A stretch of 64,000 nt of DNA from Clostridia bacterium (GTDB lineage Bacteria; Bacillota; Clostridia; Christensenellales; Aristaeellaceae), in assembly GCA_017395065.1 (NCBI GenBank), contig JAFPWH010000020.1, forward strand, positions 1 through 64,000. Direction: 5' to 3'. Positions 2,123-62,367 of the stretch are shown piece after piece. Each line of letters starts with the position of its first letter. The stretch's first letter is position 1. The notes under the pieces were generated by a model. That model did not search any database and was not told where the DNA came from. It was given only the letters and a program-made list of their open reading frames with translations. The translations under genes were made by a program, and so were the position numbers.

Positions 2123-4636
2123 ATGATCTACACAGGAAGGCAGTTAAGGGAGATCAGTTTTCCGCTGGGCGGCATCGGCACAGGCTCGATCGGCCTTGCC
2201 GGAAACGGGAGACTGACGGATTTCGAGATCTTCAACCGCCCGAACAAGGGCTCCGTAAACGGCTTCAGCCACATTGCAGTCAGGGCGGTGACACACGGCA
2301 AGTGCGTGCCCCGCGTGCTCAGCGGCGACTACGAGGGCTGCTTTACGGGCCAGACCGGCTACAATTTCGGCTACGGTGTGCCCTCGACCACGATGGCGGG
2401 CTTTCCGCACTTCAGGGACGTGGAATTCCGGGGCGAATTCCCCTACGCGTTTCTGCGTTTCGGCGAAGGCGATTTTCCGTCAGACGTGCGCCTTAAGGCG
2501 TTCAGCCCCTTTATTCCGCTGAGCGAAGACGATTCCTCCCTGCCCGTGGCGGTCTTCGAGGTGAATATCACGAATACCCTCAGCGAAAGAACGCGCTTCG
2601 CGGCGGCGTTTTCGTTCAAAAACCCCTACGGGAAGGACGGCGTGAACCGCGCGGTATCGACAGCCGAGGCGGGCGGCCCGGGCGTCTGCTTCGAAAGCGC
2701 GCTGCCCAAGGACGACACGGCCTACGGAAACATTTGTCTGGCCTGCGACGATCGGGGCGCGCAGGTGCAGACCGCCTGGTACCGCGGCGGCTGGAACGAT
2801 TCGATCACGACGTTCTGGAACGAGTTTTCGTCCGGCAGGGCCCTGAGCACGCGCTCCTATCCCGACGGGAAGAGCGACCACGCGACGGTCATGAGCGAAT
2901 TCGATCTGGACGCGGGGGAAAGCCGCTCCGTGCGCTTCGTGCTGAGCTGGTATAACCCCAATTGCTACAACTACTGGAGCCCGCTCAAAGACGAAAACGG
3001 CAGGGACGTCACGTGGAAAAACCACTACGCGACGCGCTTTGAAAGCGCCTGCGCCGTTTCGGGCGAGGTGCTGAGGCGCATGGACGAGCTGGACGGGCGC
3101 ACGATGGCGTTTCACGACGCGCTGTTTGCTTCGACCGTGGACCCCTGCGTGCTGGACGCCGCGGCGAGCTCGCTTTCCGTACTGCGCTCCGCCACCGTCA
3201 TGCGGCTCGAGGACGGCTCGTTTTACGGCTTCGAGGGCGTAAGCGAGCACGGCGGTTCGTGCGAGGGCACTTGTCAGCACGTGTGGAACTACGCCTACGC
3301 GCTGCCGTTTCTGTTCCCGAAACTCGAAAGGTCCATGCGCGATCTGGAATACAAATACTCGACCGACGAACACGGGCACATGGAATTCAGGCTCAAACTC
3401 CCCCTCGGGCGCGCGTTCACGCCGTTTCGCGCCTGCGTGGACGGGCAGATGGGCGCAGTGATCAAGACCTACCGGGAGTGGAAGCTCTCCGGCGACACCG
3501 AGTGGCTCAGAAGCGTATTTCCCAAAACGATGAGCGCGCTCGAATACGCCGTAAGCCCGTTCAACCCCGACGGCTGGGACGCGGACGCGGACGGTGTGCT
3601 CGAAGGGCGGCAGCACCACACGCTGGACATGGAGCTGTTCGGCCCGTCCGGCTGGCTTGAGGGCTTCTATCTGCTGGCGCTGGACTGCGGCCGCGCGATG
3701 GCCGAGGCGCTGGGATACGCCGATAAGGCCGCGCTGTACAAGCGCCTTTACGAGAGCGGACGCAGATTCCTGAACGAAGAATTGTTCAACGGCGAATACT
3801 TCTGCCAGAAGATCGATCTTACGGACAAAGCGCTGCTAACGCGCTACGGCGCCGAAAACTACTGGAACGACGAAGCCGGTGAGATCAAATACCAGATCGC
3901 AGGCGGCAGCTCCATCGACCAGATGTGCGCCCAGTGGCACGCGGACATACTGGGTCTAAGCCGCCCCTTCGACAAGGATAAGACCGACACGGCGCTTCGG
4001 AGCATGATGAAATACAACTTCATGCCCTCGGTGCGCTACTTTGCAAACCCCTGGCGGCTGTTCTGCCTGAACGACGAGAGCGGCACGCTGATCTGCGCCT
4101 ATCCCGAAGGCACCGAAAAGCCGAAGATCCCCGTGCCCTACTGCGAAGAGACGATGCACGGCTTCGAATACCAGTTCGCGGGGCTTCTGATCGCCGAGGG
4201 CTTCCTCAAGGACGGGCTCAGGGTCGTAAAGGCCGTGCGCGACCGCTACGACGGCACGCGCCGCAATCCCTACAACGAGATCGAGTGCGGCTCCAACTAC
4301 GCGCGCTCGATGGCGGCGTGGGCGCTTTTGCCCATCCTGAGCGGTTTTAGCTTCGATCTCGTGAACGGCTATATCGGCTTCGATCCCAAAACGGACGGGG
4401 ATTTCCGCTGCGTGTGGAGCCTCGGCACCGCGTGGGGAAGCTACGCAAGAACGCAAAGCAAAAGCGTCATAGAGATCGCGGAGGGCGCGCTTGCGCTTGC
4501 GTGCGTCGGAATCAAAGACGCGCAGAAGGTAAAGAAGCTCCTGCTCGACGGCAGGGAAATTCCGTTTACGGCGCGGGAAAACGCGCTGTGCTTTGAAAGG
4601 CAGGCCGCGCAAAGGCGCATAGAGCTCGTCATGTAA
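2123..4636 (+). CDS. GH116-family glycoside hydrolase (GBA2-like beta-glucosidase / beta-xylosidase)
   Basis: Predicted retaining beta-glycosidase of the non-lysosomal glucosylceramidase family, 837 aa from this start. The N-terminal beta-sandwich opens with FPLGGIGTGSIG (typical of GH116). The catalytic (alpha/alpha)6 region includes GSCEGTCQHVWNYAYALPFLFP and HHTLDMELFGPSG. By position relative to human GBA2 and TxGH116, E381 is the likely nucleophile and D502 the likely acid/base; this was judged by eye, not aligned. There is no signal peptide, so it probably acts on imported oligosaccharides. The start is ATG 2123 after AAAGGCGG, because the upstream in-frame ATG at 2072 sits inside the -10 box. 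The sirtuin gene follows 17 bp later. Confidence 0.88.
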   Translation: MIYTGRQLREISFPLGGIGTGSIGLAGNGRLTDFEIFNRPNKGSVNGFSHIAVRAVTHGKCVPRVLSGDYEGCFTGQTGYNFGYGVPSTTMAGFPHFRDVEFRGEFPYAFLRFGEGDFPSDVRLKAFSPFIPLSEDDSSLPVAVFEVNITNTLSERTRFAAAFSFKNPYGKDGVNRAVSTAEAGGPGVCFESALPKDDTAYGNICLACDDRGAQVQTAWYRGGWNDSITTFWNEFSSGRALSTRSYPDGKSDHATVMSEFDLDAGESRSVRFVLSWYNPNCYNYWSPLKDENGRDVTWKNHYATRFESACAVSGEVLRRMDELDGRTMAFHDALFASTVDPCVLDAAASSLSVLRSATVMRLEDGSFYGFEGVSEHGGSCEGTCQHVWNYAYALPFLFPKLERSMRDLEYKYSTDEHGHMEFRLKLPLGRAFTPFRACVDGQMGAVIKTYREWKLSGDTEWLRSVFPKTMSALEYAVSPFNPDGWDADADGVLEGRQHHTLDMELFGPSGWLEGFYLLALDCGRAMAEALGYADKAALYKRLYESGRRFLNEELFNGEYFCQKIDLTDKALLTRYGAENYWNDEAGEIKYQIAGGSSIDQMCAQWHADILGLSRPFDKDKTDTALRSMMKYNFMPSVRYFANPWRLFCLNDESGTLICAYPEGTEKPKIPVPYCEETMHGFEYQFAGLLIAEGFLKDGLRVVKAVRDRYDGTRRNPYNEIECGSNYARSMAAWALLPILSGFSFDLVNGYIGFDPKTDGDFRCVWSLGTAWGSYARTQSKSVIEIAEGALALACVGIKDAQKVKKLLLDGREIPFTARENALCFERQAAQRRIELVM

Positions 4637-4653: not shown

Positions 4654-5364
4654 ATGAAAACATTGCAGGAGATCGTCTCGGCGTCCAAGCGCATCGTGTT
4701 CTTCGGCGGCGCGGGCGTGTCCACCGAGAGCGGCATACCGGACTTTCGCAGCGTGGACGGGCTGTACAACCAGACCTACGCCTACCCGCCCGAGACCATC
4801 CTTTCGCGCACGTTCTTCGAACTGCACCCGAAGGAGTTTTTCCGCTTCTACCGCGACAAGATGCTCGCCCTGGACGCAAAGCCCAACAAGGCACATTTAA
4901 AGCTTGCGGAAATGGAGAAAAAGGGCGTGCTGAGCGCCGTCGTGACCCAGAACATCGACGGGCTGCATCAAAAAGCCGGCAGCAGGAACGTGTTCGAGCT
5001 GCACGGCAGCGTCCACCGCAACTACTGCATGGACTGCGGAAAGTTCTACCCACCGGAGTACATCTTAAACAGCAGCGGCATCCCGCGCTGCGAGTGCGGC
5101 GGGGTCATAAAGCCGGACGTGGTGCTCTACGAGGAAGGGCTGGACAACGCGACCGTGAACGGCGCGCTGCGCGAGATCTCCTCCGCGGACACGATGATCG
5201 TGGCGGGCACTTCGCTGAGCGTGTACCCCGCGGCGGGCTTTTTAGACTATTTCCGGGGAAAAGAGCTGGTTCTGATCAACCGCGACCCCACCCCCGCCGA
5301 CCATAAGGCCACGCTCGTCATTCACGACAAGGTGGGCAAGGTCTTGAGCGAACTGAACGTGTAG
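4654..5364 (+). CDS. cobB: Sir2-family NAD-dependent protein deacylase (sirtuin)
   Basis: Removes acyl groups from lysines using NAD+, yielding nicotinamide and O-acetyl-ADP-ribose; cytoplasmic. 236 aa, normal for bacterial class U/III sirtuins. Visible motifs: NAD-binding GGAGVSTESGIPDFR (about residues 19-33), the TQNIDGLHQKAG segment with the catalytic region HGS, a four-cysteine zinc site (CMDC and CEC, the last with one residue between the cysteines) and the GTSLSVYPA ribose-binding stretch. AAGGAG lies ahead of the ATG. It is co-directional with and close to the GH116 gene, so probably co-transcribed. The stop faces the trmD stop 10 bp away, with no room for a terminator. Confidence 0.93.
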   Translation: MKTLQEIVSASKRIVFFGGAGVSTESGIPDFRSVDGLYNQTYAYPPETILSRTFFELHPKEFFRFYRDKMLALDAKPNKAHLKLAEMEKKGVLSAVVTQNIDGLHQKAGSRNVFELHGSVHRNYCMDCGKFYPPEYILNSSGIPRCECGGVIKPDVVLYEEGLDNATVNGALREISSADTMIVAGTSLSVYPAAGFLDYFRGKELVLINRDPTPADHKATLVIHDKVGKVLSELNV

Positions 5365-59731: not shown

Positions 59732-59805
59732 GAGACGACTGTTATAATTATCAGGGTATTTTCCCATACCTACGGTATGGATCACATTGTACATAGTACT
59801 AAAGA

Positions 59806-59833
59806 GGAGCTGTTGCACAAGTGCAACAGCTCC
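59806..59833. repeat. 13-bp perfect hairpin
   Basis: GGAGCTGTTGCAC-AA-GTGCAACAGCTCC, nearly loopless, between the operon promoter and a terminator. A smaller one, CCATACC-TAC-GGTATGG (59764-59780), is adjacent. The pattern suggests a mobile-element end or REP-like sequence. Confidence 0.75.
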
Positions 59834-59843
59834 GGGGAGATTT

Positions 59844-59872
59844 GGAGGGGCCGCAGCCCCTCCGACTTTTTT
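59844..59872 (+). terminator. Rho-independent terminator
   Basis: GGAGGGGC-CGCA-GCCCCTCC followed by GACTTTTTT on the plus strand. No plus-strand gene lies directly upstream, which suggests it came in with mobile DNA. Confidence 0.8.
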
Positions 59873-59893
59873 CCGCAGGACCGGCTTCGCCGG

Positions 59894-60130
59894 TTCGAGG
59901 AGAATTCTGTCGAAGGGCAGTTTGCCGCTTTTGTGGATTCCATGTTCGACATAGCCTGGTATACGTTGGCGCATCTCATGACAGAGGAGCCCATGCTGAA
60001 AGCCCCGGGCACGAGGGAAACGAACCTGAAAGGCATCATGGCAACCTGAAAAAACTGCGGACGGCTGTTTATCCGGATGGGCAGCAGAAACAATTACTGC
60101 GATCCTCTGGCTGGTTGTCAGATAAACTAA
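59894..60130 (+). pseudogene. Decayed zinc-finger protein gene (DUF6076-like C-terminus) with UGA in a Cys position
   Basis: The frame reads FEENSVEGQFAAFVDSMFDI, then LTEEPMLKAPGT-like sequence to GIMAT, a TGA at 60047-60049, and KNCGRLFIRMGSRNNYCDPL ending at TAA 60130. The TGA stands where a C-x2-C zinc finger needs its first cysteine. No start codon or RBS is visible and the N-terminus is missing, so this is a remnant. Confidence 0.5.
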
Positions 60131-60192: not shown

Positions 60193-61104
60193 TTACTCAA
60201 TACATTTGATAATTGTTAATATATAGCTATCCACATAAGTCCCGGCAAATGTATTATAATTCTCCTTGTATGCCATCACAATTATACGCTCATCGCCATC
60301 AGGCTTAAAGCTCGTTTTCCCGTCAAAGAGAATTCTTGGTAATCCATTTTCTATATTGAGAATGACTGTTTTATTCAGACAAGCATTATAATAATATAGA
60401 TTATTTCTGACGATGATGTATCCATATATCTCGCCGTAATCCATTAACCCTGTCTCATCATTGCAGTAATTATCTACAAGTACTTGCGGTTTATTTTCTA
60501 ACAGGTCAATTGATACTATTCGACCATGGTTGTCCGATATAATTAGACTGTTATTATATATAAAGGATCTATTGTTATGACTGTAATTTGTGATTTCGTA
60601 ATTTGTATTGTAAATCGGCTTTTCTTGAAATGTATAAAGATTAATATGATAAATCATATGATCTGTCAATAATACCAGTCCATCATTATACAGTACAAGA
60701 TCATTTATTTGCTCGGAAGCTCTTTTACTATAAAAAGGAATTGGCTCAATACTGTCATTTTGGAGTTCCCAAAAGTCAATATGGTAGAGCCCGTTATTCT
60801 GTTTGATTTCATTAATAATCAATATCCCGTTTTGCCAAGGTATCATGTGGATATCTCCAAAAAATTTTTTTGTAAGGTTTTGCATTTGACCAGTACCGTT
60901 GTCGGTTTTAGTTATTTCATACCATTCAGGAGACCAAGACGTTAAATAATAATATCCTGCAGCTGTGTACGTATACTGCTCTGATTTACACACACACTTG
61001 TTAAACGTTTTTGTCCATCCCGTGTTGTATTGATTTTCTGCAAGTGATAAATTTTCACAGAAGACTAGAAATAAAAGCATAAGCATTATGAAAGTTTTCT
61101 TCAT
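60193..61104 (-). CDS. Secreted orphan protein, AT-rich
   Basis: 303 aa from ATG 61104, with GGGAGGG 6 nt upstream. Signal peptide MKKTFIMLMLLFLVFCENLS (cleavage near LAEN). The mature protein has repeated beta-type strands with many N, Y and I (DLVLYNDGLVLLTDHMIYHI; SFIYNNSLIISDNHGRIVSI), suggestive of a small propeller. No family recognised. Its low GC and codon use differ sharply from the core genes, pointing to recent transfer. Confidence 0.65.
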   Translation of the reverse strand: MKKTFIMLMLLFLVFCENLSLAENQYNTGWTKTFNKCVCKSEQYTYTAAGYYYLTSWSPEWYEITKTDNGTGQMQNLTKKFFGDIHMIPWQNGILIINEIKQNNGLYHIDFWELQNDSIEPIPFYSKRASEQINDLVLYNDGLVLLTDHMIYHINLYTFQEKPIYNTNYEITNYSHNNRSFIYNNSLIISDNHGRIVSIDLLENKPQVLVDNYCNDETGLMDYGEIYGYIIVRNNLYYYNACLNKTVILNIENGLPRILFDGKTSFKPDGDERIIVMAYKENYNTFAGTYVDSYILTIIKCIE

Positions 61105-61207
61105 CGCGAACCCTCCCTTTTTATATTTTGGACTGGTATGGAAAACCTGAGTGGTTTCCGTGACCATATGCATAATTATGTTAAAGATGATGAAATAGCA
61201 AAGCAAG

Positions 61208-62023
61208 CTATTGATCCAGTTTAAAGCCATGCTCCTTTAGCATCTCTTTTGTCCTTGTCTCGTTCATTTTCAGTAATCGTTGGATTTCTTCTGTATCATT
61301 ACGATCCACCAATACTTTTAATTTCCGGAAAGGCCATAGTGTTGCACCTACTTTATTCCTTGCCCATTCGTCTTCCTTAAGCCTTTCAGTAGCTAAAGCA
61401 TAATTTTGCATATCCAACAAGCTGTAAATCTCAATTAGAGTAGCACTCAATGCGGTGAATTCTATATGCGCTTTCTTATAGGCTTTGGTTGCAGGATCAT
61501 TTGCAGAATCGGCATTCATTCTCATGTACTTCAGCGCAATTTCCTTTAGCCTGATACATAATTCATAACAACCCAAAGAGTCAACCGCGTTTTCCAAGGC
61601 CGGTTTTGTGACAGTATCAAATTGATTCCTCATCTCTTCCTTGATGAGGTCAATGCCCGGGTCATGGGAATACCGAAGAGCGAAACGGATGGCATTAAGA
61701 TATGGTGACGAATACATTCCCATCTTTTCCATTTGAGCAAGAATGATACTTGTATCCCCATCTTCAAAGAGTACGGGTATTTTGCCCCTTTTTTCTTCGA
61801 TAACAGAAGTCCCAATTGGAACGGCGTATGGAGTGCAGCAAAACCCAATGTCATGTTCACCGCCACTGTACTTGGATAATCCCAAAAACTGAATCACGTT
61901 GTTGATTGAGCGATACCAATACTTATATGTTCTGTTGTACAAAAAACCGTTGTTATCAGTATAATAGCCGAAGACATCTTCTCCAACTTTATACAGGTTT
62001 TGCTTTACCAGTTTGAATCTCAT
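61208..62023 (-). CDS. Orphan protein carried between the inverted repeats
   Basis: 271 aa, AT-rich. Preceded by AAGGGGG and ATG 62023. The N-terminal 90 residues (YKVGEDVFGYYTDNNGFLYN; FCCTPYAVPIGTSVIEEKRG) look globular; the rest is helical (EFTALSATLIEIYSLLDMQN). No signal peptide, membrane helix or known motif. It may be a passenger of the IS-like unit. Confidence 0.65.
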   Translation of the reverse strand: MRFKLVKQNLYKVGEDVFGYYTDNNGFLYNRTYKYWYRSINNVIQFLGLSKYSGGEHDIGFCCTPYAVPIGTSVIEEKRGKIPVLFEDGDTSIILAQMEKMGMYSSPYLNAIRFALRYSHDPGIDLIKEEMRNQFDTVTKPALENAVDSLGCYELCIRLKEIALKYMRMNADSANDPATKAYKKAHIEFTALSATLIEIYSLLDMQNYALATERLKEDEWARNKVGATLWPFRKLKVLVDRNDTEEIQRLLKMNETRTKEMLKEHGFKLDQ

Positions 62024-62099
62024 ATGAAATCCCCCTTATTCAAACAATCATGATTCTTTGGATGGTGTGTTTTTGTTCATTATCTTCTGCCTGCCCCGC

Positions 62100-62284
62100 C
62101 TCCGGAAGAACGACCACCACCACCAGAATGCGAACGATGCTGCCCTTGATCCCGTATTCTTCCGGCAACTGCTGAACCATCCGCCTGCTGTATTGACTTC
62201 CTCTGTCGCTGTGAAAAACCGGAGATTTCGGTTTTCCGTTCCGCGCGACCGCATTCATCAGCGCCCTGCAGGCTGCATACCCTA
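62100..62284 (-). pseudogene. IS3-family transposase (integrase core) fragment
   Basis: Minus strand reads CRALMNAVARNGKPKSPVFH then SDRGSQYSRRMVQQLPEEYG and IKGS: the rve motif H-S-D-R-G-S-Q-Y-S with the second catalytic Asp. The expected S-x-x-G-x-x-x-D-N-A after IKGS is degraded. Both ends of orfB are missing. Confidence 0.85.
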
Positions 62285-62334
62285 TGCATATAGTATACCA
62301 CTACCCACTAACCTTTTTCCATACCAGTCCAAAC

Positions 62335-62367
62335 TGCATGAAACGAATCTCCGATTCATTTCATGCA
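62335..62367 (-). terminator. Hairpin over the 3' end of the acyltransferase gene
   Basis: 15-bp stem TGCATGAAATGAATC / GATTCGTTTCATGCA (one G-U pair), 3-nt loop, overlapping the stop codon of the 62361 gene. No U-run follows; it abuts the inverted repeat. Confidence 0.5.

Follow-up and report, generated by a model that had tools for sequence, protein, structure and literature searches.

Closest described systems

Among the described elements, the mobile insertion cassette (MIC) comes closest to the locus reported here, and it is represented by MIC231, which goes with IS231 (IS4 family) of Bacillus cereus (Chen et al. 1999; De Palmenaer et al. 2004; both as cited in PMC2266710); MIC231 is also cited in PMC6542083. 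Transporter IS (tIS) are named in a passage of PMC9330008, another part of which refers to the end promoters of IS911.

The present locus lies in the window, i.e. the whole stretch of 64,000 nucleotides that was analysed. As in MIC231, IS ends without a transposase gene hold a passenger between them, but the ends belong to the IS3 family rather than to IS4, a transposase relic remains, there is one copy, and mobilization in trans is only putative. The likeness to tIS is that of an IS-sized element carrying passenger DNA; a tIS keeps its transposase, whereas the window element is left with a 46-codon transposase relic only. With the members of the IS3 family (IS911, IS2 and others) it has in common the TG...CA ends, the orfA/orfB order, an rve integrase and promoter elements in the ends, but it is without orfA and most of orfB, and no target duplication is seen; the nearest plasmid-borne transposases are about 42–49% identical. 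IS3-derived miniature elements in related genomes (364 and 358 bp in contig C193 of genome G138, 606 bp in contig C11 of genome G122) display the same orfA-side end (IRL) and orfB-side end (IRR) with an internal deletion, but they hold only or mostly IS sequence and no full-length passenger gene. Judged by its sequence, we place the element among the IS3 derivatives that carry a passenger; it is a MIC by architecture and of an already known kind.

We think that the value of this locus resides in the view that it gives, in one place, of an insertion sequence becoming the vehicle of a foreign gene: the ends are kept, together with a 46-codon remnant of the transposase, a passenger in the same direction and a possible end promoter. 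Should units of this kind be moved in trans, IS3 elements would contribute to the spread of orphan genes among rumen bacteria, in which gene exchange is of practical interest. At present, it is one stationary-looking example.

Two ends of one IS3 element

The initial annotation of this DNA had described a perfect 19-bp inverted repeat enclosing an integrase fragment and an AT-rich orphan gene, and the coordinates, the profile matches and the GC content (40%, against 59–61% in the flanks) bear this out. The repeat and the ends derived from it are the following:

61127–61145, plus strand: left arm of the perfect 19-bp inverted repeat (inverted-repeat search)
62315–62333, minus strand: right arm of the perfect 19-bp inverted repeat (inverted-repeat search)
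61129–62331, minus strand (transposase-sense strand): whole element, 1203 bp, IS3 derivative with passenger (ends by comparison with IS copies of genus mates)
62282–62331, minus strand: IRL, the orfA-side end, 50 bp (98% identity over 50 bp to the IRL in G138 C193, E=2.1e-18)
61129–61174, plus strand: IRR, the orfB-side end, 46 bp (100% identical to the IRR query across 46 bp, E=1.4e-17)

The two arms, of 19 nt each, are 100% complementary with 1169 nt between them, and the inverted repeat extends imperfectly to about 46–50 bp. When up to three mismatches are allowed, the 17-bp core of the repeat is found at these two sites only in the window, against an expected number of 0.06 in shuffled windows, and two sites appeared in 0 of 100 shuffles. 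These figures, and the presence of the same ends on IS3 copies in other genomes, count against a chance inverted repeat unrelated to any IS, an explanation that we regard as negligible. The comparison with IS copies in genus mates sets the natural IS ends at TGGA/TCCA, and therefore the element is taken as 61129–62331; the outer TT/AA of the 19-bp repeat is probably a chance extension.

Copies elsewhere have two types of end, namely an IRL followed by AAGGGGGATTCTATGCCAAGCAACAACAGCAAG..., which is the start of orfA, and an IRR situated behind the C-terminus of orfB, and profile searches tell them cleanly apart. The terminal inverted repeats in the window start with TG, end with CA and match IS3 elements having orfA/orfB. 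By these comparisons, both ends in the window are authentic, they differ from each other, and they belong to one IS3-family element; as one IRL and one IRR face each other, the arrangement is that of a single IS. In an inverted-partner test of 19 end units, scores above shuffle were obtained for the window element (17/17), the 358-bp element of G138 (17/17) and the 606-bp element of G122 (16/17) only, the shuffle maximum being 12, whereas the other 16 end units scored 10–12, inside the shuffle range.

The homology to the IS breaks off at TATGCATAG at the right end of the element (IRL) and at TATGCATA at the left end (IRR). The latter is a palindromic octamer found in the sub-terminal part of both ends, and breakpoints of IS homology lie at or beside it in the window (61174 and 62282) and in locus L025 of contig C60 of the congener G138 (5404 and 5796, in further pieces of the same ends).

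Content of the element

Between the ends and inside the IRL, the following features were located:

62136–62273, minus strand: remnant of the integrase core encoded by the IS3 orfB, 46 codons in an intact frame (PF00665, NF033516, 92.7% DNA identity to the L025 copy)
62080–62135, minus strand: foreign segment, 56 bp, which reads HRSHSGGGGRSSGGGAGRR-stop (read from sequence; IS homology ends at 62136)
61208–62023, minus strand: passenger ORF, 271 aa, orphan (ORF list, composition, family and homologue searches)
62031–62037, minus strand: probable ribosome-binding site of the passenger, AAGGGGG (sequence)
62292–62321, minus strand: promoter-like site inside the IRL, TGGAAA-18-TATACT, with TG before the -10 (extended -10), pointing at the passenger (consensus match only)

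Behind the IRL, homology to the IS resumes at 62273 and stops again at 62136, inside the integrase core. The IS3-type DDE (rve) transposase is present as this relic only, a stretch of 138 bp that matches PF00665 (E=4.4e-5, and E=6.2e-6 in a second search), corresponds to positions 260–305 of 369 of NF033516, and has its closest counterpart in the fuller orfB copy of L025. Its order and orientation between the ends are correct for an IS3 element. From 62136 inwards, the foreign tail of 56 bp is followed by a spacer, the ribosome-binding site, the passenger, 33 bp, and the IRR from TATGCATA outward. The foreign tail has the look of the 3' terminus of a Gly-rich donor gene that would have been captured along with the passenger, and its reading may resemble TPM-type C-termini.

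A previous reading of the layout as an IS3 element that had lost its transposase and kept a passenger agrees well with the two matching ends and the 46-codon relic between them. We think it probable that orfA and the larger part of orfB disappeared from one IS3-family copy and that a foreign segment of about 0.96 kb with the orphan gene stands in their place, which results in a MIC-like architecture; the identity, order and orientation of the parts are the observed portion of this explanation. Both transposase-recognition ends would have been retained in the single IS3 copy, while a complete orphan gene in transposase orientation, together with what looks like a donor-gene 3' tail, would have replaced the lost part. 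We infer that the passenger was acquired by deletion or illegitimate recombination within the IS. Two replacements would then have taken place in one IS copy, with both outer junctions at TATGCATA, through a junction mechanism that is likewise conjectural. A two-step or compound origin of the element may instead have led to the same arrangement.

The passenger gene

The GC content of the passenger is 0.401, versus 0.586 for the window and 0.59–0.61 for the genes on either side, and its GC3 is 0.42 versus 0.82 in the adjoining acyltransferase gene. By our own estimate, it is unlikely that a frame of 271 codons would stay open at such a composition unless it is coding. The passenger may be transcribed from an IS promoter in the IRL, judging from the promoter-like site listed above; TGnTATACT is also present in the IRL of several IS copies.

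No usable homologue of the passenger was obtained from Pfam, NCBIfam, PADLOC, PHROGs, phages, plasmids, genome contigs or viral contigs, and the gene is absent from 100 relatives and 391 genomes of the class save for chance-level matches, the best non-self match having an E value of 0.003 over 62 residues, which is at chance level. A relationship to two AT-rich genes in L025 and to DUF4304 was considered and dropped, with no BLASTP support and no DUF4304 match. An AlphaFold2 model from the single sequence had a mean pLDDT of 37 and was unusable. At most, the passenger can be called an orphan gene that has the orientation of the transposase and lies downstream of a possible IS end promoter.

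The same ends in other genomes

In the host genome, the exact 17-bp core occurs at four places, which are the pair in the window, C36:90062 and C55:148033. Three further IS ends are present there, all of them unpaired relics, which makes three of the five ends unpaired. A scan of the family detected the core in 6 of 308 genomes, including the genus mates G136 (RGIG7988) and G138 (RUG14130), from which we infer that the host, an uncultured gut bacterium, is apparently of rumen type. Genus and family mates hold fuller IS copies as well as two-ended derivatives with the same ends; miniature deletion derivatives of the latter kind lie at 3949–4312 (364 bp) and 4885–5242 (358 bp) of L024 (G138:C193) and at 2880–3485 (606 bp) of L027 (G122:C11). 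When 84,980 species genomes were scanned for the IS end, 22 contigs matched. Of these, 21 come from MAGs placed in Clostridia or related Bacillota, the majority of rumen or omasum origin; the remaining one, from Allorhizocola, looks like a chance match. The end pattern had no match in viral contigs, nor had the element with its surroundings in a DNA search of plasmids. The initial annotation had considered that the repeat might occur only here and that relatives might carry the gene without flanking repeats; the ends do occur in other genomes, and no case of the second kind was found among the relatives.

In several of the matched contigs, the end (28–40 bp) is not followed by orfA and has no inverted partner within 3 kb. 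No IRR partner scored above shuffle level for the single-ended copies of other families, which are therefore not established as two-ended cassettes. A more general proposal would be that the 30–50 bp end of this IS3 lineage is a portable boundary acquired by many unrelated orphan genes in Clostridia and related Bacillota, mostly of the rumen, with two-ended cassettes and single-ended tandem arrays (as in RGIG6836) forming one cassette system on IS3 ends. We see this as a long shot.

Some individual loci are worth describing. RGIG6836 (Lachnospiraceae; L143, G358:C33) has four 30-bp IRL ends in the same direction on the minus strand, at 2462, 3208, 4877 and 5889, each of them situated 3–25 bp past the stop codon of one AT-rich gene and preceding the next gene, with no inverted partner. 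The four ends are identical at 26–30 of 30 positions and the next 100 bp are far less similar, while three of the four share an additional leader of 120–185 bp at 70–77%. At 769–2344 of L026 (G120:C101), an IRL with the start of orfA is followed by a gene for a 336-aa secreted leucine-rich-repeat protein of BspA type (PF13306, E=1.1e-9) and then by a piece of orfB. This locus would represent a second passenger inside an IS of the same kind; an IRR was looked for there and not detected. In L083 (892–1807), a 42-bp IRL end leads directly to a ribosome-binding site and a lipoprotein gene where orfA is expected, and no inverted partner of this IRL was found.

Mobility of the element

The unit had been proposed to be a mobile insertion cassette moved in trans. 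The first part holds as far as architecture is concerned, with both IS ends around a passenger and no functional transposase, but movement in trans is not supported: a second copy of the passenger, a target duplication and an intact IS3 transposase in the assembly were looked for and not found. In principle, the unit could be moved in trans by an IS3 transposase. That it is an active cassette, moved with its passenger in this way, seems to us rather unlikely, even if several observations favour it. Both ends are complete, and perfect over 19 bp. They also look better kept than the integrase relic (1/96 versus 10/137 differences from the best matches, Fisher p 0.03, a comparison biased by the choice of best matches as comparators), and an AT-rich passenger sits amid GC-rich surroundings. 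In addition, G136 has an orthologous acyltransferase gene (87% identical) with other DNA behind it instead of the element. The flank is lost right behind that gene, however, and the collinearity is too low for an exact empty site to be read, so that the check for empty sites yielded the absence of the unit only.

Against an active cassette stands the single copy of the element in the host genome and its relatives, together with the absence of the passenger from the genomes searched. No target duplication flanks the element. Duplications of 3–4 bp are typical, not universal, in the IS3 family, and the two-ended derivatives of 364 and 358 bp (G138) and 606 bp (G122) have none, or 2 bp at most; thus, its absence is not diagnostic in this lineage. 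The host assembly, a draft of 81 contigs that is 97.3% complete, contains no intact IS3 transposase, and its only other IS3 transposase match is a 46-residue relic at C55. Since repeats can drop out of such a draft, the assembly may lack an IS that exists in several copies. An IRL is about 140 bp from a contig end in G136 (141 bp from the end of contig C49) and in contigs L086 and L098, as expected where an intact repeated IS breaks the assembly, and active relatives may therefore exist. As no matching transposase was found, the element is probably stationary in the host genome, and its mobility is not supported.

Surroundings of the element

Two features outside the element were examined next to its ends:

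62335–62367, minus strand: terminator-like hairpin between the acyltransferase gene and the element (93% complementary arms; -20.4 kcal/mol, z -5.8)
60193–61104, minus strand: gene B, 303 aa, GC 0.323, with a start that resembles a signal peptide (begins 24 bp beyond the IRR)

Gene B has no family match in Pfam, NCBIfam, PADLOC or PHROGs. As it is AT-rich too, foreign DNA reaches beyond the element, which is a further argument against an active cassette. The AT-rich zone, from about 60.0 to 62.1 kb, crosses the left end of the element, and contig C60 of G138 shows a mixture of IS pieces and AT-rich genes. Both observations, and the frequency of unpaired IS ends in the host genome, would suit a situation in which the gene, as part of a larger AT-rich island (genes A and B), lies by chance between two separate IS3 relics, or between a relic and a newly inserted end. 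We give little credence to this explanation, as IRL and IRR face each other 1.2 kb apart with a piece of orfB between them in the correct order and orientation, which chance need not give. The loss of orfA and most of orfB from one IS3 copy is the reading that we retain.

An Rfam search over the element region gave no match. AT-rich or signal-peptide-type genes begin about 13–70 bp outside an IRR and point away from the element at four places (window 60193–61104, L030 left of 4063, L047 right of 2217, and L025 1724–2590); perhaps they are driven by the IS end or were captured beside it. Farther to the left, positions 59803–59929 of the window form a dispersed repeat that is highly structured (-70 kcal/mol, z -5.2), belongs to no Rfam family and has several matches in the same genome and more than 30 in G138. 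The left edge of the AT-rich zone is a pseudogene tail at 59922–60102, which is repeated in the same genome at L076 1658–1812 (92%) and L077 1620–1800 (87%).
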